A DNA stretch of 37,971 bases, taken from contig QEUQ01000019.1 of NCBI GenBank assembly GCA_003577105.1, positions 1 through 37,971 on the forward strand, written 5' to 3'. Made by a program: the position numbers and the translations under genes. This DNA is from Acidobacteriota bacterium (GTDB lineage Bacteria > Actinomycetota > Acidimicrobiia > ATN3). Position 1 is the first letter of the stretch. Each line of letters starts with the position of its first letter. Shown here piece after piece: positions 3,001 to 30,036 of the stretch. Below the pieces are notes generated by a model. The model was given only the letters and a program-made list of their open reading frames with translations, had not been told where the DNA came from and did not search any database.

Positions 3001-6000
3001 GAACTGCTCAGCTGACGTGAGTGCTGCCGGATTCTCGCCGCCTCTGCCGACGCGCCAGATCTGCTGGGAGCCCCTTACGCCCGCATCAAACACAATCAAG
3101 CTCGAGTCGGGCGAGTATGTTGGCGCTGCAACTTCAGATCCGAGCCACGTTACTTGCCGCGGACTTCCGGCGTAGTAGGCGCCCGAAGTGCCGTCACGCC
3201 CCAAGCTCACCGCGAAGATCTCGGAGCCCGAACCGGTCCGCGAGACAAAAGCGATCTCCCCTCCATCGGGAGACACTGCGGGCTCGCCGTCAGCCCGGCT
3301 ACCTGGAAGCAGCCGAGTTTGATCCGAACCGTCCGTATCCATGACGTACAAGGCCCGGTCGCCGTCCCGGTCTGAGGAGAACACGATCGCGGATCCATCG
3401 GCGGTGAAAACCGGCTCCATGTCATTCCCGCTGTCCGGCGTAAGAAGACGGAGATTCGTAGTAATTGGCTCGCCCGTACCTGGGTCGCGCAACAGATCCA
3501 TCGTGTAGATGCCGATGTCGAATCCTTCACGAGACGAAGAGAACACGATTCTCGACCCGTCAGGAGACACCTGAAGCTCTGGTCCAAAACTCGGGTCACG
3601 AGCCGCGCTGCGCGGGAACTCATCTAGCAGCGCCCCCTCCCAGAGCCCCGCAGTCCTCACGTAGACATTCGATCCCGCGATTAGCGCATCAAGTGGAGCC
3701 GCGCCGGAGATTGTGGCGTCCGATGCCGGGTCACGGATCAGAATCTCCAAGTCCCTGAAAACGAACTCCACAGAGCGTTCGGCTACCGAGCCGTTGCCTG
3801 CTGAGTCGACGACTTCTAGTCGGAACATGGCTGAACCGATTCCCTGGGAAGGCACCGCAGGATCCCAGGTCGCGAAAGTGGTACCCGCATCACGAGGGCC
3901 AGTCCCTTGAGCCAGCACCGCGGGATCCGATCCAAGTTTCGTCGCCGTTAGTGTCCAGCTGACAGAGTCCGACATGTCTCCAGATGGCGCTGGATCGACC
4001 CCGACCGATCCTTTGATCTCGACCGGTCGAAACACCTCGTACGACCCCTCGACATCGAGCGTGGCTCTTGGCCCGAGGTTGTCGATTACCAGGGGGGGCG
4101 AGGTGACTGCGGTCACGGTCGACTGAGCAAGTAGCTCGGCCAGCTCACGCTCGACGGGGTCCTGGCTGTTCAAATCCGGTGCGATGCAACCGGTGAATTC
4201 ACCGGGCACACACGGCAGGACGTATTCCTGGGGAGGAGCGCGCGGCGACTGGACCGCGAGGAGAACCAATTCGACGGGTCCATCGGCGAAGCGGCCTGAG
4301 TCGATCGTTCCTAGCATTTGCGCTTCGCCCGCGCCGCGCGCGTCCGAGAACGTAGCGGTCGGGGCTACATCCAAGCCGCGGCTGACGCCCGGGAAGGCGT
4401 TTGCTGCCACGCCGTTAATCGTCTCGCCAGTCGCGACTCCGACGCCCCAGATCCATGTATGCGAGCCTCCGACGGTGCCATTGACATCGACGCTTGACTT
4501 CAAGACGCTGGGCGGCGGCGGGCTCGCAATCGTTGCATCGAGTGGCTGCCATCTGAATGTTGATGTCTTTTCAACGATGACCGGCTCGCCACCGCCAGAA
4601 GGCGCAGCGGTGAGTCTGAAGACAACGCTGACTCCCTCGGGTGAGGATCCCCCCGGCAGGCGCGGGTCGTACTGGAAGCTCGGCGGATTCGCGGGATCGG
4701 TCGGGCCAGAACCCGCTATGACTGTCGACTGGCCGCCTCCCTCGACGGAGAAACTCCACGCCCCCGCAACACTGCCTCCCACCGAGTATCCAATCGGCAC
4801 CTGCTCGAACCGCTCGTATTCCGGCTCGGCTTCGACGAAAGCCTTGATCGGCACCGACACGTTCACTGCCAGTGTCACCATGGACTCGACGGGTGGTACC
4901 GCGACGTTCTCGGCTTTGACGCTGAGAGTCACGTCGCCATCGTCAAAAGCAAAGGGGTCGAGCGTCCCGATGGGCTGTGAGAACACCTCGCCTGAACCGC
5001 TCGCGAGCACAACGGACTTCTCACCTTGCGAAGCTGTGACCGTCCACGGGCCAACATCGGACTCATCGTCGCGAATCGTCGCGACAATCGGTGTGGGCTC
5101 GGCAACTGTCTGGCCGTCGGTTGGCGTGTCGACAGAAATCGCGGGCGGTGAATTGTCGACGATCGGGTCCTCCGCAACAATCACTTCATTTCCCGATGTG
5201 TCGGCCACAACTGCAGCCAGCCGCCAGGCGGATCCGTCCTTCAGCCGGGTCGTATCCCAGTCGACGAGGTAGTGATCGCTCCCGCTCGGCGATGTCGACG
5301 CGCCATCGCTATCAGCCGCATAGGGTGGCTGGGTGCCCTGTCGCTCAGGAGGACCCGGCGGGATATCAGCGGGCGGCCCATGACTCCGGCGACAGCGCCT
5401 ATCGCCGTCGCGGTCATCGTCCCTCTCCCGGCCGTCAGCGCGGCGGTCGCGGTCGTCGTCCCTCTCCCGACAGCGACGATGTCTCCGTCGCCCAATAGGC
5501 ACACCAAGCTCGCCGTCTCGCGCATCTGCGCGGGCCGCATAGAACTCGGGGTCAGATGCCAGGCCCACGTCATCGGTGGCCGTGATCTCAACCGGAACCA
5601 CGCCCGAAACGAACATGCCAAGGTGCGGATAGATCCACCCCGTAGACGGCGGCGAGGCGTCTACCCCGGCAGCCCTGATCTCCCGCACGCCGTCTGATGA
5701 CGACGCCGACCAGGCGGCGGGCAGTCTCCCTAACGAGTTCTCCGGTGATGCCGGCGAGCTGAGCGCAGTACCGGAAATCTCAACGCGTGCATCCGACCAC
5801 TCGCCACCATCTGCAAGGTTGCGCCTGAACAGGTTGTAGCCGTCAGTCGTCAATAGAACACGTCGACCGGGGACTTGGCTGAGCGACGGCTGGGATTCGG
5901 CGGGGCCACTGACACGTCTGCTCGTCCAAGTACCATTACGCCTTGTCGCGACCTCGACTCCATTTGACGTCGCATAAGCCAGACTTGGGGATGCGCCTCC

Positions 6001-8065: not shown

Positions 8066-8235
8066 CCCAGATCGTCTAAGATCAAGAGATCGAGGCGTTG
8101 GAGCTGGTTCTTGATCCGAAGGAAGCTCCGTTCATCTCGTGCCTCCGTCAGTGTCGTGATCAACTCGGTCACTCGGAAGTAGCGGACCTTCTTGCCTCTG
8201 GCGCAAGTCTCATGGCCGAGGGGGATCGAGGAATG
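8062..8235 (-). pseudogene. Remnant of IS21-family ATPase IstB
   Basis: About 57 minus-strand codons read as the middle of IstB, the AAA+ helper of IS21 transposases. LGHETCARGKKVRYFR matches the segment after Walker A, TELITTLTEARDE the next helix, and LQRLDLLILDDLG the Walker B strand. The frame stops immediately after LDDLG at 8062, and IstB similarity ends upstream near 8235, so Walker A and both termini are missing. No istA is visible. It is a dead fragment. Confidence 0.8.
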
Positions 8236-8299
8236 GCTCCTCCCGGGCCCGCGGTTGATGAAGGGAAAAACGTGGACCCGGTCGCAAAGAATTCGAACC

Positions 8300-8509
8300 G
8301 CGGCTGAACTGCCGTTGGTTGTCGATCTCGCCGACCCCGCTCTCCCACCCAAGTATCAGCAGATCGCCGAGCGCGCCGCCCACCTCCGCGAACTCGGGAT
8401 GACCTACCGCTCTATCGGCGAAGTCCTCGGTGTCGACGCGAAATCAGTGCGGAACGCTACCGGGTGGTGGGAAACAAGGAGCCAGGACCGCCACCTTGGT
8501 CGCCCATAA
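8300..8509 (+). pseudogene. Fragment with a helix-turn-helix (recombinase/transposase-like)
   Basis: About 65 plausible residues run from around 8300 to the stop at 8509. The helix-turn-helix is clear: RAAHLRELGMTYRSIGEVLG, then VDAKSVRNATGWWE, where YRSIGEVLG and DAKSVRNA form helices 2 and 3. This type occurs in resolvase and transposase DNA-binding parts. The codons before it overlap the istB remnant on the other strand and do not look like protein, so this is probably a tail whose N-terminus was lost. The 242 bp from here to the methyltransferase hold no gene that I can support. Confidence 0.5.
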
Positions 8510-8751: not shown

Positions 8752-10485
8752 GTGTCGATTGCCAAGCAATGCCAATTGCCGTTCACTGTCGCCCATGATG
8801 ACCGGACCCCGACCGCTGCGTCTCATGACCAGACCGGAGCAAGGCGAGTGACGTCGCTGCTCGATCCGGCACCGACACTCGCCGAGAGTTCTCATAGGGG
8901 GCTCGGCGCGTACTACACGCCATCCATTGCGACGAAGGCGCTTGCGGCGTGGGCGCTTCGGCAGCGCGGCGACCGGGTACTTGAACCGAGCATGGGCGAC
9001 GGCGCGTTTCTGGCGGAGCTGGCCCAGGAAAGCGAACGGCGCGGGCTTGATGCGGAGATCTGGGGTGTCGAGCTCGCCGCCGACACATTCGCGGCCACTA
9101 TTGATCGCGGCGTCGTGGATCCCACGCATGCTATTCGGAGCGACTTCCTGGCGGTTGACCCCTTCGAGGTCGATGCTGTCGTTGGCAATCCACCCTATGT
9201 GCGTCTACGACATATCCCAGAGGACGAGGCCATTCGAGCCCGGTGCGCGGCTGCCGAGGTTCTAGGCGAGACCATGGACCCGAGCGGCAGCGTGTGGATG
9301 CCCTTCGTGCTCCACGCAACGCGGTTTCTTACCCGCGGGGGCCGACTGGCCTTCGTTCTCCCTTTCGACATCACCTACGTTCGCTATGCGCAACCGCTGT
9401 GGTCATTCTTCGGTCACAACTTTGGCTCGTTAAGGGTCGTCCGAGTCCACGAGCGGATGTTCCCTGAGATCCTGCAGGAAGTCGTGCTCCTGTTTGCTGA
9501 CAACTTCGGCGGATCGACGCAGCAGGTAACCTTTGAGGCGTTCCGCACGCTCGAGCACCTTGAGCGAGGCGCACCCGAGCTAAGTGCGCGACTTCATGTG
9601 AGCGATGTGGTCGCCGGCGATCGCGTATTCCTCGAAGCGCTGCTGCCGGGAGCGGCTCGCGAGTTGGTGGGTCAACGGCTCCGAGATCTCACTGTACCGG
9701 CCCGTGAATTGGTCACCTTCAACATCGGTTACGTCTGCGGTGACAAGAGCTTCTTCCACCCCGAAGACGAGGCTATCGTCGACTACGACCTTCCTGACGC
9801 ATGTCTTCGGCCCGCCCTCACGTCGAGTCGGCAACTGCGCGGGTGTGGCCTGCGCGCGTCGGCAGTTCCGAGCGATCGCCTAGATCGATTGTTTCTACCC
9901 TCCTCCGATCTCGGGACACTCACGGACGGTGAAAGGGAATACATTCGATTCGGTGATCGATCAGGCGTGTCCCAGCGATACAAGTGCCGAATTCGCGATC
10001 CCTGGTACATAACCCCGGGCGTGAAAATCCCTGATGTCCTCGTGCCTGTTTTTACCGAGCGCCCGGTCATGCTCCTGAACGACGCTGGAGTTGTGGCATC
10101 GAACAGTCTGCTCTGCGGCTACCTGCAGTCCGGCACCTCCAATGCTCTCGTCAGCTCTTGGTACACGTCCCTCACTTTGCTTCAGCTCGAACTCCAAGTC
10201 CACGCACTCGGAGGCGGCGTGATGGTCCTCGTCCCGCGCGAAGCAGGAAGCATTCGGATGGTCGACCTTCAACGATCAGTCGGTGGGGACCACCTCAGAC
10301 GAATCCATCGGCATCTTGCCGCCGGGCGGTTGGACGATGCGTTCCTAGCCGGTGACGAACCGGTGCTCCAACGCAACCTCGGACTAACCAGTAATGAGAT
10401 TGTGGCAATTCAAGAGGCGGCGCGAGAACTTGCCTGGTGGCGCACCGCCGGACGATCAGGGTCTACGGCCAGGACTGCGGGGTAG
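8752..10485 (+). CDS. Adenine-specific DNA methyltransferase (M.TaqI-like, gamma class)
   Basis: The 577-aa protein starts at GTG 8752 behind a good ribosome binding site (GAGGAAG, 8740-8746). An N-terminal methyltransferase domain shows motif X (GAYYTP, residues 52-57), the AdoMet-binding motif I (VLEPSMGDGAF, 76-86), the acidic IWGVEL strand (103-108) and catalytic motif IV NPPY (146-149). This order is that of gamma-class N6-adenine methyltransferases such as M.TaqI. The remaining ~350 residues would be the target-recognition region. It probably methylates adenine in a specific site and protects host DNA from the nucleases encoded convergently downstream, whose last stop lies 24 bp away. 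It could also be an orphan or part of a bifunctional enzyme, but no nuclease motif is seen inside it. Confidence 0.85.
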   Translation: MSIAKQCQLPFTVAHDDRTPTAASHDQTGARRVTSLLDPAPTLAESSHRGLGAYYTPSIATKALAAWALRQRGDRVLEPSMGDGAFLAELAQESERRGLDAEIWGVELAADTFAATIDRGVVDPTHAIRSDFLAVDPFEVDAVVGNPPYVRLRHIPEDEAIRARCAAAEVLGETMDPSGSVWMPFVLHATRFLTRGGRLAFVLPFDITYVRYAQPLWSFFGHNFGSLRVVRVHERMFPEILQEVVLLFADNFGGSTQQVTFEAFRTLEHLERGAPELSARLHVSDVVAGDRVFLEALLPGAARELVGQRLRDLTVPARELVTFNIGYVCGDKSFFHPEDEAIVDYDLPDACLRPALTSSRQLRGCGLRASAVPSDRLDRLFLPSSDLGTLTDGEREYIRFGDRSGVSQRYKCRIRDPWYITPGVKIPDVLVPVFTERPVMLLNDAGVVASNSLLCGYLQSGTSNALVSSWYTSLTLLQLELQVHALGGGVMVLVPREAGSIRMVDLQRSVGGDHLRRIHRHLAAGRLDDAFLAGDEPVLQRNLGLTSNEIVAIQEAARELAWWRTAGRSGSTARTAG

Positions 10486-10509: not shown

Positions 10510-11208
10510 TCAGGCGAAGACGTCCATAAACAGCATCCGCGACTTGAACGTGTCGACCATTCGATCGATGAACGTCGACGTTCGAAGGTCGATACCTGGC
10601 ACTGAGGCCTGCACGATGTCGTCCCTCACCCGCGGGGGAACCTGGTCAAAGTCAACGACGAGGTAAGCGAACTGGTCATAAATGCCTCTGATGGACTTGT
10701 AGTCCTGACCTGTTCGCCCCGTAATGGATGCATACAGTTTCGCAAATCGCGGGTGGTCCACGGCCTCGTGCTCCTTTCCCTCCTTGATTGGCTTGAGCGG
10801 CATGAGATAGGCATAGCCGATGGTGCTCATTGGGAATCGGTCCTGCAGGCTGATGCACTCACCGACGATGCCTTCGTAGTAGGTCAGAACGTTCTTGCCG
10901 ACACTGCTCATCTGACTGCGGACACCGATCATCATTAACGGTCCGTTGTCGGGATCGATGACGGAAACGTCCACATCCTTTGGCTTGTGCGAGCCGAGGA
11001 TCGTCGCCTCCGCTTTGACGAAGATGCCGCGCTTCTTGGCCTGGGGCGTCAGCCGCGCGTCCAGCTCTGCGATGAAGTAGCTGTGCAAGCACTTGATGAA
11101 TGCCTGGCCGCGCACGGCCTTCACCGGATCAGCTCGGTAGATCGTGCCCATGTCGACAAGGCATCGTGAGAAGTCCACCGTTCCGCCCTTGCTAGCCGTG
11201 TTGTTCAC
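10510..11208 (-). CDS. Probable restriction nuclease subunit, atypical PD-(D/E)xK-like
   Basis: This 232-aa soluble protein is not a family I can name. A helical N-terminus (GQAFIKCLHSYFIAELDARL) is followed by a strand-rich core: FVKAEATILGSHKPKDVDVSVID (about 63-85), then LMMIGVRSQMSSVGKNVLTY (91-110). The spacing of D78/D80 and the next strand resembles a PD-(D/E)xK nuclease, but the expected ExK is replaced by VRSQ, with K105 further on, so the active site is uncertain. It is the second gene of a minus-strand operon, 14 bp after the PLD-type nuclease, and it converges on the methyltransferase. That context, not a motif, supports a restriction role. It could instead be a specificity or structural subunit. 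Confidence 0.55.
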   Translation of the reverse strand: MNNTASKGGTVDFSRCLVDMGTIYRADPVKAVRGQAFIKCLHSYFIAELDARLTPQAKKRGIFVKAEATILGSHKPKDVDVSVIDPDNGPLMMIGVRSQMSSVGKNVLTYYEGIVGECISLQDRFPMSTIGYAYLMPLKPIKEGKEHEAVDHPRFAKLYASITGRTGQDYKSIRGIYDQFAYLVVDFDQVPPRVRDDIVQASVPGIDLRTSTFIDRMVDTFKSRMLFMDVFA

Positions 11209-11222
11209 TTGGCCTCAGGAGA

Positions 11223-12437
11223 CTAGTACAGGAAGGGGCCTGCGGGGTTGTCGGCAATGAGCAGACGGTAGATCCCTGCGCTAGTCCTTTCGAGCGACGC
11301 GTATTTGTCAGTGTTGTCGTGCTGGCGGAGGTATTCCCCAAACTCGCGCCACGCGAACTCACTCGTCCGGTTGGCTTGGTCGGAGTCGTAACCCGGCGTG
11401 TACCGAACATCGAAAGTGTGAAGGCCAAGGTTCTCTTCATCGACGGTCACCGCAACATCAACTGACGCGATTTCCCGCAGCTGGCCGCCCGCCGTTTCGC
11501 TCGCGTGCCAGCCAGCATCTGCGAAGAACACCTCACGGAAGTACGTTGACGCATCGATGTCATGTCCTGCCTTGACCAGGGTCATGGTGTTCGAGGGGCT
11601 GCTTGTCGGAAGCTGCTGGGCATCCGCGCGAGGCAGCCGCTTGAACCACCGCCGGACGACGCGGTCTTCGGGGGCTGCGGCAGATTCGAGGCCGTCCGCC
11701 TCAGCCGGCGTCGCGCCTTCGCCAATCCCAGGTGTCGCGCCGCGATCGGCTCTGATCGGCTTCTTACGCGATCTCATCTGGAACCGGGTCGTTCCGAAGA
11801 TCCGCGCACCGGGCGGAAGGCCAGGGTCTGCTTCCGCGGTGGGGTCCTGCTCCGATGTCGATCCGCCGCGAGACTCGTCTTCGTCGGCCAGCGGGTACCG
11901 ATCGTTTCTGGCCAGCGATTCGATGAGCGCCTCGTCGAGCCGCAAGCACAGCTCTTTGTCATCGACCAGCCGATCGACGTAGTCGTGAACGGCGATCGAG
12001 AACGCCCGCTCGTCGTCGACCATCAGGTCGAGCGTCGAAAGCACTCCGGCCTCGTAATTATCCTGCACGCCGCCGAGCGTGAGATTGTGCGAGCCAACCA
12101 ATATGAGGGCGGTGTTCGAGCCGCTCGCCGCGAAAAGCTTCGGGTGGAACGTGCGGCCAGGATGGTGGAAGACGTAGGCATCTGTCGCGACTTCCGTTAT
12201 CGCCTGGAGTCCCTGCAAGCTGGTGCCACCCTGGCTGATGCCGACGACAGCCCGGATCGTGCCCCCGCGCTCCAGGAAGCGCGCCAAGTTGTCGTAAACG
12301 GCTCTGACACCTGTCCGCTTCACCCAGGCCACCACAATGTCGAGCTGGGAGAGCGCGGCGTCGGCGGCGACCAGTTCGAGGAAGTCGCGCAGATCGAAGC
12401 CGGCGTCATGAGGCTGAGCAACGAAGCGATGCGACAC
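11223..12437 (-). CDS. PLD-superfamily nuclease, probable restriction endonuclease
   Basis: The 404-aa protein starts at GTG 12437 with AAGGA upstream. The N-terminal ~170 residues are a phospholipase-D-like nuclease half: a first strand and helix (LDIVVAWVKRTGVRAVYDNL), an IRAVVGISQGGTS loop, then FHPKLF (H98, K100) and VGSHNLTLGGVQDNYEAG (114-131). This HxK...GSxNLT...N.E pattern is that of BfiI/NgoFVII-type nucleases, which act as dimers and often need no metal. After an acidic, low-complexity linker (about 175-290), the C-terminus (about 295-404) could be a DNA-binding domain. It leads the operon with the 10510-11208 gene and faces the methyltransferase, so a restriction-modification role is likely. 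A single HKD motif is normal for this group. Confidence 0.75.
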   Translation of the reverse strand: MSHRFVAQPHDAGFDLRDFLELVAADAALSQLDIVVAWVKRTGVRAVYDNLARFLERGGTIRAVVGISQGGTSLQGLQAITEVATDAYVFHHPGRTFHPKLFAASGSNTALILVGSHNLTLGGVQDNYEAGVLSTLDLMVDDERAFSIAVHDYVDRLVDDKELCLRLDEALIESLARNDRYPLADEDESRGGSTSEQDPTAEADPGLPPGARIFGTTRFQMRSRKKPIRADRGATPGIGEGATPAEADGLESAAAPEDRVVRRWFKRLPRADAQQLPTSSPSNTMTLVKAGHDIDASTYFREVFFADAGWHASETAGGQLREIASVDVAVTVDEENLGLHTFDVRYTPGYDSDQANRTSEFAWREFGEYLRQHDNTDKYASLERTSAGIYRLLIADNPAGPFLY

Positions 12438-12793
12438 CTAGGGCATCCTTTCCAGATACACAGGCTCTTCCCGCGTCATTCGACTCCGTACCAGCGCCCC
12501 GTGGACTGGTGAAGGTTACAGGTTAGTACCCACCAAATGATCCCGGGTATGTGCACTCGCCGTGGCTTCGGCCCACTTCACGTCTGCGGACCGCGCGCTC
12601 CCAAGAGTTCTCTCGCGACAACCGACCGCGGGTATCCGCGGGTTAGGGCCCCGCATGCCACGCTTGCACGGCCTTTGATTCTCGTAGAGCGACCCAGGGA
12701 GGGCGCCATTCACGACGGACCTCTCGCTGCCGCACGCCCCTGCGGGGCGCTTGGCCTCAAATTGTGCGATGGCGTTGATAGAGTTTGTCGATC
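12438..12793. other. Intergenic region between the nuclease operon and the MerR-like gene
   Basis: This 356-bp divergent region contains no frame I would call a gene. Its left end must hold the promoter and ribosome binding site (AAGGA) of the PLD nuclease on the minus strand. Its right end holds the -35-like TTGTGC (12762-12767) and the operator of the MerR-like gene. Nothing else was recognised. Confidence 0.5.
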
Positions 12794-12794
12794 A
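12762..12794 (+). promoter_or_regulatory. -35-like element plus palindromic operator of the MerR-like gene
   Basis: TTGTGC at 12762-12767 is followed 14 bp (start to start) by TGATAGAG-TTT-GTCGATCA at 12776-12794. The arms are an imperfect palindrome and the operator ends on the A of the start codon. It matches the second operator (13386-13404) at 16 of 19 positions and has the same offset from its -35-like element. Autoregulation by the MerR-like protein is inferred. Confidence 0.65.
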
Positions 12795-13345
12795 TGACCC
12801 AGCAGTCCTTCACACTTACGGAGATCGCGCGGCGACTCGGCGCAGAGCAGCATCGGCTGATTCATCTCTGCGAGAAGGACGTCGTGCTCCCCGACTTCGG
12901 GGGAGCAGCAGGGCGTGGAAGCAGCCGACGATTCTCAGGGCGAAACCTTCTGGAATTCTCGATCGCGCTACGTCTCCGCAAACTGCAGCTGCCGCTAGCC
13001 TCGATCCGGGGCATTCTCTACGTGCTTCGCGAATTCGAGGCAAAAGTCGCGAAGAAGATTCCCGGGTTCGCTCTTCCCGACAGCCTGCGAGAGGCGTCGG
13101 CCCCGGAACTCCGAATTATCGTCAGCGATGGCGAGGCCATCTACTTCACCCTTGAGACAAAGTTGTTCTACGGCATGCCGCTGTTGCTAGACCCCGCGAG
13201 CCCTTCGACAAGCGGCTCTCCGAAGTTGCGGCCAGTCACTCCGGCGAAGCGCCGCGCCGGTCGATTTGGCGGCCCCGAATCGAGCCAGTTCATGCGTCTA
13301 GAGATCAGCGTCACCGAAATCGCGAAAGCCCTCCCCCTCGACTGA
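12794..13345 (+). CDS. MerR-like helix-turn-helix regulator
   Basis: This 183-aa protein starts at ATG 12794; a TTG nine bases upstream is in frame but would put the operator inside the gene. Residues about 6-70 resemble a MerR-type winged helix: FTLTEIARRLGAEQHRLIHL for the helix-turn-helix, then SRRFSGRNLLEFSIALRLRK for the wing and the RxF-type segment. The helix LASIRGILYVLREFEA is typical of the linker. The C-terminal ~110 residues are unrecognised and have no cysteine cluster, so metal sensing is unlikely. It sits between the nuclease operon and the recombinase operon, and the operator beside its own start recurs before the recombinase operon. It probably controls the element's own excision or integration genes. 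A role as a recombination directionality factor is possible. Confidence 0.7.
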   Translation: MTQQSFTLTEIARRLGAEQHRLIHLCEKDVVLPDFGGAAGRGSSRRFSGRNLLEFSIALRLRKLQLPLASIRGILYVLREFEAKVAKKIPGFALPDSLREASAPELRIIVSDGEAIYFTLETKLFYGMPLLLDPASPSTSGSPKLRPVTPAKRRAGRFGGPESSQFMRLEISVTEIAKALPLD

Positions 13346-13371
13346 CCTCGCCCGGCCGGAACCACCGGGTT

Positions 13372-13406
13372 TTGTCACAGGCAAATGATAGACTATGTCT
13401 ATCATT
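13372..13406 (+). promoter_or_regulatory. Promoter and operator of the recombinase operon
   Basis: TTGTCA at 13372-13377 is a good -35. The palindrome TGATAGAC-TAT-GTCTATCA (13386-13404) follows and extends two more paired bases on each side, to 13384-13406. It covers the place where a -10 should lie (TATGTC at 13394-13399, spacer 16). A bound protein would either block the promoter or, in MerR style, distort it. Confidence 0.75.
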
Positions 13407-13422
13407 CATGGCGGAGGAACCG

Positions 13423-13602
13423 GTGCGGGCGAGCAAGAGCAAGACGATCGGAAACACGCTCGACGAAGGCCTGAAGGCCATGCTCGATCACGTCGCCACC
13501 GAGCTTGCCGAGGAGTACGTCCAACTCATGGAGCGCGCGGCCGCTGAACAACTGATCGCCTCATCCAGCCCAGCAAACACACGAAAGGAAGATTCAGCGT
13601 GA
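13423..13602 (+). CDS. Small protein co-transcribed with the serine recombinase
   Basis: This 59-aa protein starts at GTG 13423, chosen because GGAGG at 13413-13417 has ideal spacing; an in-frame ATG at 13408 would place that site inside the gene. The sequence is mainly helical and charged (NTLDEGLKAMLDHVATELAE, EYVQLMERAAAEQLIAS). Its stop overlaps the recombinase GTG (GTGA at 13599-13602), so translation is coupled. There is no known domain. Small genes in this position can encode directionality factors or recombinase partners, but no motif proves that here. Confidence 0.65.
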   Translation: MRASKSKTIGNTLDEGLKAMLDHVATELAEEYVQLMERAAAEQLIASSSPANTRKEDSA

Positions 13603-15428
13603 GAGCGGCCATCTATGCCCGTTACAGCTCGGAGAACCAGCGACCGGAGAGCATCGAAGACCAGGTCGGTGCTTGTCGCCGGTTGGCGGCGGAGCGCGGT
13701 TTCGTCATTCTCGAAGACCAGATCTACAGCGACCAGGCCAAGTCCGGCGCGCGCCGAGATCGCGAAGGTCTCGCGGCGCTGATCGAAGCTGCTTCGAGCG
13801 GTGTGTTCGACGTAGTTCTGGTCGACGACCTGTCGCGCCTTGCCCGCGACAACTACCTCATGCTCTCGGTTCTTGCCGAGCTTCACTTTGAGAAGGTCCG
13901 GGTCGTATCGGTCGCAGACGGCCTCGACAGCGACGACGAAGAGGCAACGCTCGGCATCCAGATACGGGGAATCTTCAACGAGCTGCAGCTACGCGACCTG
14001 AAGAAGAAGACCCTCCGCGGCCAGATCGGCCAGAAGCAACGGGGCTTCTCGGTAGGCGAGCGCACCTTCGGTTATCGCTCCGTCCCAGTCGGCGAGATGC
14101 GCATGGACAAGAATGGGCGGCCCCGCCCGGGGGGTTACCGAATGGAGATCGACCCGCGCGAAGCCGCCGTTGTGCTCCGTATCTTCAAGGCGTACGGAGA
14201 TGGCATGCCGATGACCAAGATCGTCAAGGTATTGAACGAGGAGGGAGTACCTGGGCGCTTTCGCGCGTCGAAGGGGTGGTCGCCCGCGACGGTCAGCAGG
14301 ATCCTCGACAACGAGAAGTACATGGGGCGCTGGGTCTGGAACAAGACCGAATCACGCCGCGATCCGCGCACAGGCAGGCGTCGCAAGTTCGAGAAGCCCG
14401 AGTCCGAGTGGCTCGTAACGGAAGACGAGTCGCTCCGCATTGCGCCCCAGAATCTTTGGGAAGCGGTGCGGGCCCGACGCAAGGAGGTGCGCAAGACCTG
14501 GCCGGGCGGGAACAAGCGCGGCTTCTCTGCCGACCAGGGCAGCCGGCAGGCCCACTTCCCCACCCATCTCTTGTCGGGCACGATGCGCTGCGGAGTGTGT
14601 GGCGGAGCTGTAGGCCAGGTGAGCGGGAAGTCCGGCGGTTACTACGGCTGCTTCGGCGCGCAGAGACGCTCTTGTGAGAACAAACTCTTGGTGCGACGAA
14701 CGCTCGCCGAGGAGAAGATCGTCGATGCCGTCCGCAAAGTGATCGCCGAACCCGAGAACGTCCGCTACGTACTCGAGCGGGTCGAGGCCGAGGTGGCCAA
14801 CCTCCGCTCGGATCTACCCGAGACAGTCAAGTTGAAGCAGGCCGAACTCGACTCAGAACAGCGCCGCCTCTCCAACTTCATCGACTTCGTGGGCGAGGGT
14901 CGCGGAAGCCAGGCCCTTGCCAAGGCTCTCGTCGAAAGCGAACGGCGAGTCGAGTCACTGACTGAAGAGGTCGACGCGCTCAACGCAAGTTGCGAAAAGG
15001 TCTTCCGCGCGCCGCCGGTCGAGTGGATCGCGGACCGGCTCGCAAATGTTGGCGACGTTTTGAAGAAGCGCACCGGTCGCTCGGCCCTGGTGCTGAGGGA
15101 ATTCCTCGGCACCGTCACTCTCACCCCGACACCCGCCGACATCGGCAGGCCGTTCTACAGGGCTGCGACCTCTATCGACACGGTGGCGCTCGTCGAATCC
15201 GACGGTGCGACCGGCGGCGGCGAGGCCGACGGTTCGAATTCATTGCGTTCGTGGAGGTGGCGGGACTCGAACCCGCGTCCCCCGGGGCATCGGCAAGAGC
15301 ATCTCCGAGCGCAGCCGCCAGGAGCAATCTCAACCACACACCCTCTGACGGCGCCGGGTGCGGGTCCAGCTCAGCTCAAATTTCCCTGTAACAGAGTGCC
15401 GAGCGGACTCGTGCAGGTAAGCCCGTAA
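13599..15428 (+). CDS. Large serine recombinase (integrase) whose frame ends inside ssrA
   Basis: The 609-aa frame starts at GTG 13599. The resolvase domain (1-150) has YARYSSENQ with catalytic Ser10, a DQAKSGARRDREGL loop and LVDDLSRLARD around 75-85. The recombinase domain (about 155-290) has KGWSPATVSRILDNEKYMGRW. A zinc ribbon lies near 331-356 (CGVC...C...C), followed by a coiled coil (about 385-480) and a conserved tail (FLGTVTLTPTPADIGRP). From about residue 552 the frame reads antisense ssrA (RWRDSNPRPPG is the antisense of the T-arm), so the last ~58 residues are host sequence. It presumably inserted the island at the ssrA 3' end. Transcription depends on the operator promoter at 13372-13406. 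Confidence 0.93.
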   Translation: MRAAIYARYSSENQRPESIEDQVGACRRLAAERGFVILEDQIYSDQAKSGARRDREGLAALIEAASSGVFDVVLVDDLSRLARDNYLMLSVLAELHFEKVRVVSVADGLDSDDEEATLGIQIRGIFNELQLRDLKKKTLRGQIGQKQRGFSVGERTFGYRSVPVGEMRMDKNGRPRPGGYRMEIDPREAAVVLRIFKAYGDGMPMTKIVKVLNEEGVPGRFRASKGWSPATVSRILDNEKYMGRWVWNKTESRRDPRTGRRRKFEKPESEWLVTEDESLRIAPQNLWEAVRARRKEVRKTWPGGNKRGFSADQGSRQAHFPTHLLSGTMRCGVCGGAVGQVSGKSGGYYGCFGAQRRSCENKLLVRRTLAEEKIVDAVRKVIAEPENVRYVLERVEAEVANLRSDLPETVKLKQAELDSEQRRLSNFIDFVGEGRGSQALAKALVESERRVESLTEEVDALNASCEKVFRAPPVEWIADRLANVGDVLKKRTGRSALVLREFLGTVTLTPTPADIGRPFYRAATSIDTVALVESDGATGGGEADGSNSLRSWRWRDSNPRPPGHRQEHLRAQPPGAISTTHPLTAPGAGPAQLKFPCNRVPSGLVQVSP

Positions 15429-15603
15429 ACGTCGCCCTGACCGGCCCGACGGGCACAAACCGGAGGACGGGCTGCTAGTTAGGCAGCCAGCGCGACATTT
15501 TCGTCGGCGCTTATTGTTGTTTTCCCACCTGATTAACGAGGACTGTGGGGACCTCGGCTCGCTTCTCCTGCGTCAACACCCGGGGTCGAAACCAATCACC
15601 CCC
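15252..15603 (-). ncRNA. ssrA: tmRNA (ssrA)
   Basis: The minus strand begins GGGGGTGATTGGTTTCGAC. GGGGGTG (15603-15597) pairs with CACCTCC (15259-15253) as the acceptor stem, with discriminator A at 15252; CCA is not encoded. The T-arm GGGTTCGAGTCCC lies just inside the 3' end. The internal tag reading frame is GCC GAC GAA AAT GTC GCG CTG GCT GCC TAA, giving ADENVALAA, a normal degradation tag rescuing stalled ribosomes together with SmpB. The 352-nt length is usual. The gene remains intact although a recombinase gene abuts and overlaps its 3' end. Confidence 0.95.
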
Positions 15604-26566: not shown

Positions 26567-28282
26567 TCACCTGCCACACGAGGCCTCGTCGAGCGCGAGC
26601 ACCTGATTTGAACGCACATCCGTAAGTGTCTGAACGCATCCGCTGGGCCAGGTAACGCGCACTTCCGCCACGTTGGCTCTAGATTGACCAAGGCCAAAAT
26701 GTGCCTCGAGTGGATCTTGGCCGAGGTAGTTGTCTCTCATTCCAACTTCGCGCAGCATCGGCGTCTTTCCCGCTGCGCGTGTCACGAGAACCCGAGCGCC
26801 CACCGCCTCGGGCGTAGATTTCGGCCCGTAGCCACGGAGACGAACCTTGAGCCACGCACCGACGGAGGTCTCATTGCGAAACAGGCGTGGCTGATCCCTC
26901 CGCTGGATTACGAGCAAATCGAGATCGCCGTCGTTGTCGTAGTCAAAGGTGACCAAGCCGCGGCCTTCGACTGTGTCACGGACACCGGCCTTGGCGGCAA
27001 GATCGGTGAAGTGCCCCTTGCCATCGTTTACCTGGAGAAAGGTCGGGTTCGAGCGGAACTTCTCATAACGATCTTCGCCAAGAACATGGAACCCTGATGT
27101 GTGAGCGATGTCGAGATCGCCGTCGTTGTCGGCATCGAAGAAGCTTGCGCCCCACCCCCAGGCGCCATCTCTGACATTCGCCCGGTCTGTGAAGTCAGAG
27201 AAGCTTCGATTGCCATCATTTCGATAGAGGCGATTGCCCGTTATCCCGAACATGTGGTCACACTGACCGGGCATGCAGTCATCAAAGATGGATGTGACAA
27301 ACCAGTCGAGCCTGCCATCGAGATCGAAATCACCAAAGGTCGATCCCATGCCGTTCTCGTCGGAACCTACGCCAGAGGACTTCGTGCCGTCGGTGAATGT
27401 GCCGTCTGTGTTGTTCCACCAAAGTCCACTTGAGCCGAAGTCCGCGGCGACCGCTAGATCCTGATAGCCGTCATCATCGAGATCGACAAATGCCGGCGCG
27501 AAACCAAATATGCCGTTGTGTCCCCCCACCGGTGAACGGCCTTCAAAATTGATGCCAGCTTTCGCTGTCACATCGTCGAATTGACCGGGAGCCGCCTGTC
27601 CTCGGTTTCGCAAGAGCCTGTTGTGTGACTCCCCAACAACTCCGGCCTTACGGAACCGCCACTCGCTCACGAAGATATCGAGGTACCCATCACGGTCATA
27701 GTCACCTAGCGTTACCCCTTGGCCGAAGACCTTGGAAGTCTCGTCAACCGGCGTCGCGTTCCTCGCCACCGCTTCTTCGGAGAAGTGCCCCTTGCAGTCA
27801 CTCATGTAGAGCACATGGTGAGCCTTGCGAACCCTGGTCATGTAGATGTCAGGGCATCCGTTGTTGTCGATGTCTCCGAAAACGACGCCGCTTGTCCCCA
27901 GATGCCCCGAGGGGCCGCCTAAGCCGGACTTAACAGAGACATCTTCAAAGCTTCCGTCTCCGCGATTTCGATAAAGAATCGGCGGCTCATCAATTCGAGT
28001 GACAGCTAGGTCGAGATTCCCATCGCCGTCGAAATCGCCCGCAGCCGCGCCACCGCTCATGATTTCAGGTCCGCACTCCTGCCAGTCACCGCAATCCGGG
28101 CTCGCGTCCTGGACGTAGTCAATGCCGGCGGCCTTGGTCACGTCGCTAAAGATTGGACTAGGTGTGCCGCTCCCAAGCGATGCGTAGATGGCCCCGGCGC
28201 CGGCCAAGAACGCGATCGCCAAGACCACAATGAGTAAGGTTTTCGGCCTCAACGCGCGCCGGACCAGCCGCCCGGCGCGCAT
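26567..28282 (-). CDS. FG-GAP/ASPIC-UnbV repeat protein, membrane-anchored
   Basis: The 571-aa protein starts at ATG 28282 (MRAGRLVRRALRPKT); the open TTG 28303 would overlap the upstream stop. A basic N-terminus and one hydrophobic helix (LLIVVLAIAFLAGAGAIYA) give an anchor or uncleaved signal. Seven or so integrin-like FG-GAP/VCBS repeats follow with calcium-loop motifs DFDGDGNLD, DIDNNGCPD, DYDRDGYLD, DLDDDGYQD, DFDLDGRLD, DADNDGDLD and DYDNDGDLD. The C-terminal UnbV/ASPIC domain ends with VRVTWPSGCVQTLTDV. It is a beta-propeller surface protein, paralogous to its upstream neighbour throughout. The ligand is unknown. Confidence 0.9.
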   Translation of the reverse strand: MRAGRLVRRALRPKTLLIVVLAIAFLAGAGAIYASLGSGTPSPIFSDVTKAAGIDYVQDASPDCGDWQECGPEIMSGGAAAGDFDGDGNLDLAVTRIDEPPILYRNRGDGSFEDVSVKSGLGGPSGHLGTSGVVFGDIDNNGCPDIYMTRVRKAHHVLYMSDCKGHFSEEAVARNATPVDETSKVFGQGVTLGDYDRDGYLDIFVSEWRFRKAGVVGESHNRLLRNRGQAAPGQFDDVTAKAGINFEGRSPVGGHNGIFGFAPAFVDLDDDGYQDLAVAADFGSSGLWWNNTDGTFTDGTKSSGVGSDENGMGSTFGDFDLDGRLDWFVTSIFDDCMPGQCDHMFGITGNRLYRNDGNRSFSDFTDRANVRDGAWGWGASFFDADNDGDLDIAHTSGFHVLGEDRYEKFRSNPTFLQVNDGKGHFTDLAAKAGVRDTVEGRGLVTFDYDNDGDLDLLVIQRRDQPRLFRNETSVGAWLKVRLRGYGPKSTPEAVGARVLVTRAAGKTPMLREVGMRDNYLGQDPLEAHFGLGQSRANVAEVRVTWPSGCVQTLTDVRSNQVLALDEASCGR

Positions 28283-28296
28283 CGCAGCAGAGTCTT

Positions 28297-30036
28297 CTAC
28301 CAACTCGATTGCTTACCGCACTCAGCCTCTTTGGCCTCAACTGTTGAGCCGCGCTCAACGTCGCGGAAGGTCTGCGCGCATCCCGACGGCCAAGAGACTT
28401 TGACCTCATGGATCTTCTCCTTGCCGCCGCCGACACCAAAGTGCTGCACCAACGGATTCATGCTCAAGTAATTGTCAGCTCCAGCCACCCTCGAGACCAA
28501 CGGCGCCTTGGACTTGTCATAGGTCACCGTCACCTTGGCGCCGACTCCGTCACGTGGGGCCTTGCCTGCACCACCCTCCCCAATGGCCTTCACCTTCACT
28601 GAGCCATTCTTGTTTCCGCCCTCATTCTTGAAAAGGCGCGCCTTCTGCGCGTGCTGCACGAGGAACAGATCAAGGTCGCCGTCGTTGTCGTAGTCGAAGG
28701 TAAGCAAGCCCCGGCCATCTTTGCTGTCACGGATGCCGACCTCGTTACCCACCTCGGTGAAGGTGCCGTCACCGTTGTTGCGCTGGAAAAACGTCGGGTC
28801 GTTACGGAACCGGTCTATGTGAGGCATGCCTGCCATGTGAAAACCGGCTGTGTGGGCAATATCGGGCCATGTGTTGTTGTCGTAGTCAATGAATGTCGCG
28901 CCCCAGCCCCAAGCACCGTCACGCACTCTGGCTCGGTCGGTCCTGTCCGAGTAGGTCCGATTGCCGTCGTAGTGGTACATGCGATTGCCATCTACTGCGT
29001 GCGTGCGCCCGCAGTCGGCAGCGCACTCGTCGTAAATCGCGGTTACGAACCAGTCGGTGCGCCCGTCTTGATCGTAGTCGGCGTATGTCGAGCCCATGCC
29101 GGCCTCGTCGGTGCCAACCCCTGCGGCACGTGTTCCATCGGTGAAAGTTCCGTCTCGGTTGTTCCACCAAATTCCACTAGTGACAAAGTCCGCCGCCACT
29201 GCGAGGTCCAACCATCCGTCGTCGTCGAGATCGATCAAGGCCGGCGCAAAGCCAAAGGCGCCTTGGAATTCAGGGTTCTTTGACCTGCCGCCCAGCTCGA
29301 TACCTGCGGCCTTAGTTACGTCGGTGAAAGTTCCCGGAGCGGCCGCTCCGTTGTTCTTCAGCAGGCGATTGTGGTGCGGAGTACCAGCGGGCCAGGGGGT
29401 CTTGCGTCCGCGAACCTCCTCGGCCCTCCACTCGGCGATGAAGATGTCAAGAAATCCGTCACGGTCGTAGTCGCCGAAACTCACGCCCATGCCGAAGACG
29501 CTCGGCACGCTCTCAACCGGCGTCGCCTGGCGCTCAACTGCCTCTTCGGTGAAATGCCCTTTGCAGTCACTCATGAACAGGTAATTGCGGAAGTCCCTCA
29601 ACGCGGTTACGTAAAGGTCGAGACATCCGTCGTTGTTGATATCTCCCCAACCGGCTGAATTGGACTTCAGCAACTTGCCATCGAGGTCGAGCTTTGACTC
29701 CTTGGTCTTGTCCTCAAAAGTCCCATCCCCCTTGTTCCTATAAAGGATGGGCGTCTCATGGTGACGGGTCACAAAGAGATCGATATTGCCGTCGTTGTCG
29801 TAGTCCCCCGCAGCTGCACCGCCGGTCATCGACTCTGGGCCGCACTCGGGCATGTTCCCGCAATCACGCCCGTGATATTGGATGTGCGTGATCCCCGCAG
29901 CCTCCGAAACGTCAACAAATTTCGGGGCTGATTTCGATCCAGCTGAGCCGGCGGGAGTATCGGTCTTAGTGCAACCGGCAAGTAGCAGGAGGACCGCTAG
30001 GGTGCCTGCAAGTCCGGCCAAGCGAGCATGGCGCAT
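28297..30036 (-). CDS. FG-GAP/ASPIC-UnbV repeat lipoprotein
   Basis: The 579-aa protein starts at ATG 30036, with GGAGGA ten bases upstream. The signal LAGTLAVLLLLAGC is a lipobox. Repeats follow with DYDNDGNID, DINNDGCLD, DYDRDGFLD, DLDDDGWLD, DYDQDGRTD and DYDNDGDLD; one loop, DYDNNTWPD, is off-consensus. The UnbV/ASPIC end has VKVSWPSGCAQTFRDV. It aligns over the full length with the 26567-28282 protein (shared CGPE-MxGGAAAGD, MSDCKGHF-EEAV, GFAPA-DLDDDG, GWGA-F-D), so the two arose by tandem duplication and then took different anchors. Same strand, 14 bp apart, probable operon. Confidence 0.92.
   Translation of the reverse strand: MRHARLAGLAGTLAVLLLLAGCTKTDTPAGSAGSKSAPKFVDVSEAAGITHIQYHGRDCGNMPECGPESMTGGAAAGDYDNDGNIDLFVTRHHETPILYRNKGDGTFEDKTKESKLDLDGKLLKSNSAGWGDINNDGCLDLYVTALRDFRNYLFMSDCKGHFTEEAVERQATPVESVPSVFGMGVSFGDYDRDGFLDIFIAEWRAEEVRGRKTPWPAGTPHHNRLLKNNGAAAPGTFTDVTKAAGIELGGRSKNPEFQGAFGFAPALIDLDDDGWLDLAVAADFVTSGIWWNNRDGTFTDGTRAAGVGTDEAGMGSTYADYDQDGRTDWFVTAIYDECAADCGRTHAVDGNRMYHYDGNRTYSDRTDRARVRDGAWGWGATFIDYDNNTWPDIAHTAGFHMAGMPHIDRFRNDPTFFQRNNGDGTFTEVGNEVGIRDSKDGRGLLTFDYDNDGDLDLFLVQHAQKARLFKNEGGNKNGSVKVKAIGEGGAGKAPRDGVGAKVTVTYDKSKAPLVSRVAGADNYLSMNPLVQHFGVGGGKEKIHEVKVSWPSGCAQTFRDVERGSTVEAKEAECGKQSSW

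Follow-up and report, generated by a model that had tools for sequence, protein, structure and literature searches.

A conserved pair of operator-like sites and a candidate MerR-type repressor on a serine-recombinase island

The MerR-like protein encoded by an island at a bacterial tmRNA gene is probably an autorepressor that also represses the operon of the island's large serine recombinase (LSR), acting through two copies of one operator, S1 and S2. This reading, binding and repression included, is given roughly three chances in four. Taken on its sequence, the pair is real and conserved, and it makes up a two-site regulon of an LSR island. The predicted circuit, one repressor gene and two 19-bp sites, is small enough to be rebuilt in the laboratory, and it comes with the attachment arms of its LSR. 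To our knowledge, the control of LSR islands after insertion, that is, how recombination is kept off, has been little studied outside phages.

The island and its recombination module

The window, the whole 37,971-nucleotide stretch of DNA that was analysed, is best read as holding a ~7-kb island that is inserted at the 3' end of the tmRNA gene and carries restriction-modification genes. The putative island and its target comprise the following features:

8192-8509, overlapping the left arm: small left-end ORF, HTH-like (weak HTH/sigma-like matches)
8272-8299, unstranded: left attachment arm and left end of the island, GTGGACCCGGTCGCAAAGAATTCGAACC, an inverted copy of the right arm; the same in G1088
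8752-10485, plus strand: cargo, type II DNA methyltransferase, Eco57I-like (Pfam, PADLOC)
10510-11208, minus strand: cargo, type II restriction-enzyme-like protein (PADLOC REase_II, E=4e-10)
11223-12437, minus strand: cargo, PLD-nuclease-like protein, DrmC-like (PLDc_2, weak DrmC matches)
12794-13345, plus strand: MerR-like regulator, 183 aa (Pfam MerR_1, E=0.004, under the cut-off)
13408-13602, plus strand: small ORF, 64 aa (ATG at 13408, or GTG at 13423 with GGAGG before it)
13599-15428, plus strand: LSR, 609 aa (Pfam Resolvase, Recombinase, Zn_ribbon_recom)
15231-15255, unstranded: right attachment arm, GGTTCGAATTCATTGCGTTC then GTGGA; the same in L036, L069 and others
15251-15603, minus strand: tmRNA gene, the insertion target (ARAGORN, tag ADENVALAA)

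The LSR gene extends into the tmRNA gene. No long direct repeat of the tmRNA end turned up when one was sought; the left end came from an inverted copy of the tmRNA-side arm (15231, GGTTCGAATTC) at 8289-8299, with GTGGA common to both sides. Since the inverted arms share this pentamer, the left end is placed at ~8272 and the length of the island at ~7 kb. Inverted arms round a short shared core are the arrangement of an LSR island, recognized here from the sequence and conserved in relatives, and the recombinase itself has the Resolvase, Recombinase and zinc-ribbon domains of its class. Its GTG start overlaps the stop codon of the small ORF, which has a conserved motif (LLDHxAxELAxEYVxLM) and is retained in LSR relatives that have no MerR-like gene.

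The window's MerR-like protein scores 17.6 bits against a MerR_1 cut-off of 21.6, so its assignment to the proteins with an N-terminal MerR winged-helix domain is made on its homologues: all five match MerR_1, three of them (L036, G1088 and G1187) above the curated threshold. By sequence, the nearest protein of solved structure is CvkR (7xn2), a weak match (E=0.005); the structure prediction, with a pLDDT of 37, is too poor to be used.

ORFs similar to the HTH-like ORF at the left end are found in G1088 and L037; the ORF is a candidate directionality factor or regulator. Elsewhere in the window, two adjacent long minus-strand ORFs (26567-28303 and 28297-30036) are alike and by eye resemble FG-GAP/ASPIC-like repeat proteins; they are probably a tandem duplication.

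Two sites, probably one operator

The proposed operators flank the MerR-like gene:

12776-12794, unstranded: S1, TGATAGAG-TTT-GTCGATCA (in full TGATAGAGTTTGTCGATCA), covering the start of the MerR-like gene
13386-13404, unstranded: S2 core, TGATAGAC-TAT-GTCTATCA, before the operon of the small ORF and the LSR

S1 and the MerR-like gene overlap by a single base, the A of the ATG. The symmetry of S2 continues beyond its core, giving perfect 10-bp arms in AATGATAGAC-TAT-GTCTATCATT (13384-13406); no other palindrome in the 38-kb window combines perfect arms ≥10 with a spacer ≤10. The sequence-only reading had aligned the two sites as identical at 16 of 19 positions, and its sequences and coordinates are exact. 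A 16/19 pair also arises in 13 of 300 Markov simulations of a 645-bp region of the same composition (~4%); the internal match is therefore suggestive, and the case has to be made from other elements.

The first relative to be found, L036, is in a record labelled as an Acidobacteria metagenome-assembled genome; its LSR is 69% identical and its MerR-like protein 49% identical to those of the window, and it, too, is inserted at tmRNA. G1088, G808, G1187 and G1247 (whose element ends at a contig end) were found in the phylum of L036 and in the classes of its relatives, for at least five relatives in all. As far as the contigs reach, the order MerR-like gene, small ORF, LSR holds in every element. 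The pair recurs in these elements: a site occupies the S1 position in 6/6 elements and the S2 position, before the small ORF, in 5/5 elements that extend far enough, the window included in both counts. The sites of the relatives are:

L036: TGATAGACAATGACTATCA (S1), TGATAGACGTTGCCTATCA (S2)
G1088: TGATAGACACTGCCTATCA (S1), TGATAGACGCTGTCTATTA (S2)
G1187: TGATAGACAATGACTATTA (S1), TGATAGTCATTGTCTATCA (S2)
G808: TAATAGTAGTCGTCGATCA (S1), TGATAGACGTTGTCTCTTA (S2)
G1247: TAATAGCCGTCGTCGATCA (S1 only)

S1 ends in ATCATG, start codon included, in five of the six elements; the exception is G1187, whose start would be a GTG just past S1 or an ATG within it. Because the window's own pattern was used to spot these sites in the first place, the argument rests not on their resemblance but on their fixed positions, on a leave-one-out matrix and on the unconserved flanks. 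In every two-site element the leave-one-out matrix ranks the two sites first and second, with a clear gap to the third, and identity within the sites is 0.72/0.83 vs 0.28-0.39 in the 45-bp flanks on either side. Applied to the plus strand of the window, a strand-symmetrical matrix built from other elements' sites only scores S2 at 28.1, S1 at 20.1 and the next-best position at 11.6. The notion that two palindromes happen to look alike, for which the 4% of simulated regions leaves some room, is refuted by this conservation (the pair in other elements, the leave-one-out ranking, the unconserved flanks) and retains almost no credence. S1 and S2 are thus probably two copies of a single operator, with the consensus TGATAGAC-NNT-GNCTATCA.

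The host phylum of these relatives appears to differ from that of the window, since the sets of genomes drawn from the two phyla have no member in common, and the pair is apparently conserved across two phyla. Among the matches listed from the host's own phylum, MerR proteins occur without a recombinase nearby; among plasmids and viral contigs no MerR-like relatives were found. In G1187 the target is not tmRNA but a tRNA-Ala gene, at whose 3' end the copy lies (L166 3196-3289), which indicates that this LSR family is able to use other tRNA-like 3' ends. An apparently decayed copy, L165 (G1177), is at tmRNA: its recombinase is truncated at the N terminus, and both the MerR-like gene and the site are missing.

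The motif is also rare. Many unrelated copies in the genome would have counted against a dedicated operator, and a scan finds the pair to be essentially unique per genome: in the host's 2.87 Mb, the sequence-only reading's pattern, one mismatch allowed, fits three places, two of them S1 and S2, and in the relatives' genomes nothing matches with at most two mismatches other than the element sites. The third place in the host genome (C40:6514) is within a coding gene for an AarF/UbiB-kinase-like protein and is read as chance, as are three exact matches in viral contigs, which lie in or beside unrelated genes. The island cargo holds no convincing further operator copy; the other matches in the window have three mismatches and lie outside it.

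Repression or activation

Two -35-like hexamers had been singled out upstream of the sites:

12762-12767, plus strand: TTGTGC before S1; present, spacing varies in relatives
13372-13377, plus strand: TTGTCA before S2; present, spacing varies in relatives

The matched 14-bp spacing between each of these hexamers and its site is true of the window and is not conserved: in the relatives the nearest TTG begins 18, 21, 18 or 19 bp upstream of S1 and 10 bp upstream of S2, or is absent. With distances that differ and a TTG that may be missing, the spacing is no conserved feature and looks coincidental. It also differs from the geometry of a MerR-activated promoter.

A consensus-like promoter of L036 and G1187, TTGACA-N17-GACAAT, has its predicted -10 element within S1 and would start transcription close to the ATG, so that a leaderless message is predicted, one that would be blocked once S1 is bound. 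At S2, the best candidate -10 element overlaps the right half-site in three relatives. In the window itself the promoters match the consensus poorly, and a promoter and terminator scan of 12600-13700 found nothing. A T-run between the stop codon of the MerR-like gene and S2 is conserved (TTTT at 13370-13373 in the window, longer in L036, G1088, G808 and G1187); it is a candidate terminator or promoter element.

Classic activators of the MerR/CueR/BmrR type act on a dyad centred in a 19-20 bp spacer, and with promoters as predicted no such spacer centred on the dyad is found in the window. The overlap of the likely -10 elements with S1 and S2 appears to fit occlusion, and hence repression, better than classic MerR activation. 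A mixed scheme, in which the MerR-like protein represses itself at S1 and, on a signal, activates the recombinase operon at S2 by untwisting an over-long spacer, nevertheless has points in its favor: in L036, G1088 and G1187, S2 lies between TTGNNN and TATCAT/TATTAT hexamers 18 bp apart, and spacers of this kind often serve MerR proteins for activation (PMC9938897). However, the S2 dyad is displaced ~4-5 bp toward the -10 element and overlaps the hexamer, and the corresponding hexamers in the window are 22 bp apart; activation at S2 is accordingly rated unlikely.

The protein that goes with the site

LSR relatives that keep the small ORF and have no MerR-like gene do not have the site; they have other regulators. 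In L037 (LSR identity 60%), an ORF divergent from the recombinase operon (4465-4799) matches NikA and, weakly, RHH, and this gene is preceded by a 22-bp perfect palindrome of different sequence, AGTCGCCACCGCGGTGGCGACT. In L083 (LSR identity 47%), the divergent gene (5096-5770) encodes an HTH_3 protein. Across 79 LSR loci without a MerR-like homologue, mostly those of distant recombinases, the top score is 18.1 vs 21.4 for the weakest true site; the close MerR-less relatives inspected in detail number two. Of the island's proteins, only the MerR-like one is present or absent together with the site.

This correlation bears on the idea that another island protein binds S1 and S2, either the 64-aa small protein or the product of the left-end HTH ORF (8192-8509). 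Both are small, and G1088 keeps a counterpart of the left-end ORF, whose HTH/sigma-like matches are weak; yet L037 has both kinds of ORF and L083 has the small one, and neither element has the site. Either assignment is quite improbable. It is a shade less probable still that the MerR-like protein serves chiefly as an excisionase-like directionality factor for recombination, with its promoter sites providing feedback control. Its gene adjoins the LSR gene, and phage excisionases and MerR proteins have a common winged-helix fold, but S1 and S2 lie in promoters, ~2-5 kb from the attachment arms, and neither arm has a copy of the motif nearby.

The preferred reading is autorepression coupled to repression of the recombinase operon. 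A dimer of the MerR-like protein would bind S1 and S2; homodimers of the MerR family bind palindromes of ~15-20 bp, and both sites are palindromic over 19 bp. Occupation of S1, the likely -10/start region up to the start codon, would make the protein repress its own gene; at S2, where operator and likely promoter of the small-ORF and LSR operon overlap, it would repress the recombinase. An island entering a repressor-free cell would produce a burst of LSR and insert at the tmRNA 3' end, and as the repressor builds up, recombination and repressor synthesis would both shut down. Binding by the MerR-like protein, repression as its sign and the timing of the entry burst are what we infer. The proposal of one regulator for itself and for recombination is borne out to the extent that the pair keeps its positions in relatives, is near-unique, and is absent where the MerR-like gene is; that this protein is the binder is the inferred part. 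To call the arrangement a simple switch goes beyond the evidence; the observations fit an autorepressed shut-off module.

A broader view is offered tentatively, at somewhat less than even odds: the recombinase and small-ORF module may be a common chassis on which regulator-plus-operator cassettes are swapped (MerR-like with TGATAG, NikA/RHH-like with another palindrome, HTH_3), and the MerR-like cassette may represent a new repressor family of mobile elements, with an operator that runs up to and onto the repressor's own start codon.

Comparison with known systems

Repression by MerR-type proteins through palindromes that overlap the -10 element and start point is known for McdR and HnoC (cited in PMC9938897). 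Their targets are chromosomal (cell division and DNA repair; nitric oxide signalling), whereas here the target belongs to a mobile element.

Among islands, the ssrA-specific genomic islands of Dehalococcoides, with DsiB/DsiA (PMC3146451), are alike in having a serine recombinase at the island end, insertion at tmRNA and cargo behind a conserved integration module; they differ in their partner genes, which are RecF-, ParB- and Mom-like. The words MerR, regulator and operator are absent from the text of that paper. In the literature covered, outside which most subscription papers fall, a pairing of MerR proteins with serine recombinases or with ssrA islands was not found described.

The nearest counterpart is CvkR (Alr3614), the MerR-type repressor of type V-K CRISPR-associated transposons (PMC9938897; PDB 7xn2). 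Like CvkR, the island protein is MerR-type, is encoded by a mobile element, has a palindromic operator and, it is predicted, controls the element's recombination genes; a leaderless message, established for CvkR (PMC9938897), is predicted here for the MerR-like gene. CvkR, too, has one target site over the -10 element and start point and another in a long spacer. The differences are substantial. The CvkR operator is AnnACATnATGTnnT, against TGATAGAC-N3-GTCTATCA in the island. The element of CvkR is a Tn7-like CAST with cas12k and tnsB, and that of the MerR-like protein combines restriction-modification genes with an LSR; the island proteins searched gave no Cas12k- or Tn7-type match, so that the gene does not stand beside cas12k. 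The targets differ as well, and the CvkR authors' data speak against autoregulation (PMC9938897), whereas S1 lies over the start of its own regulator's gene. The best reading is that the island regulator works like CvkR but is not a CvkR. If true, this would add to CvkR a second MerR-type protein that guards the recombination genes of a mobile element.
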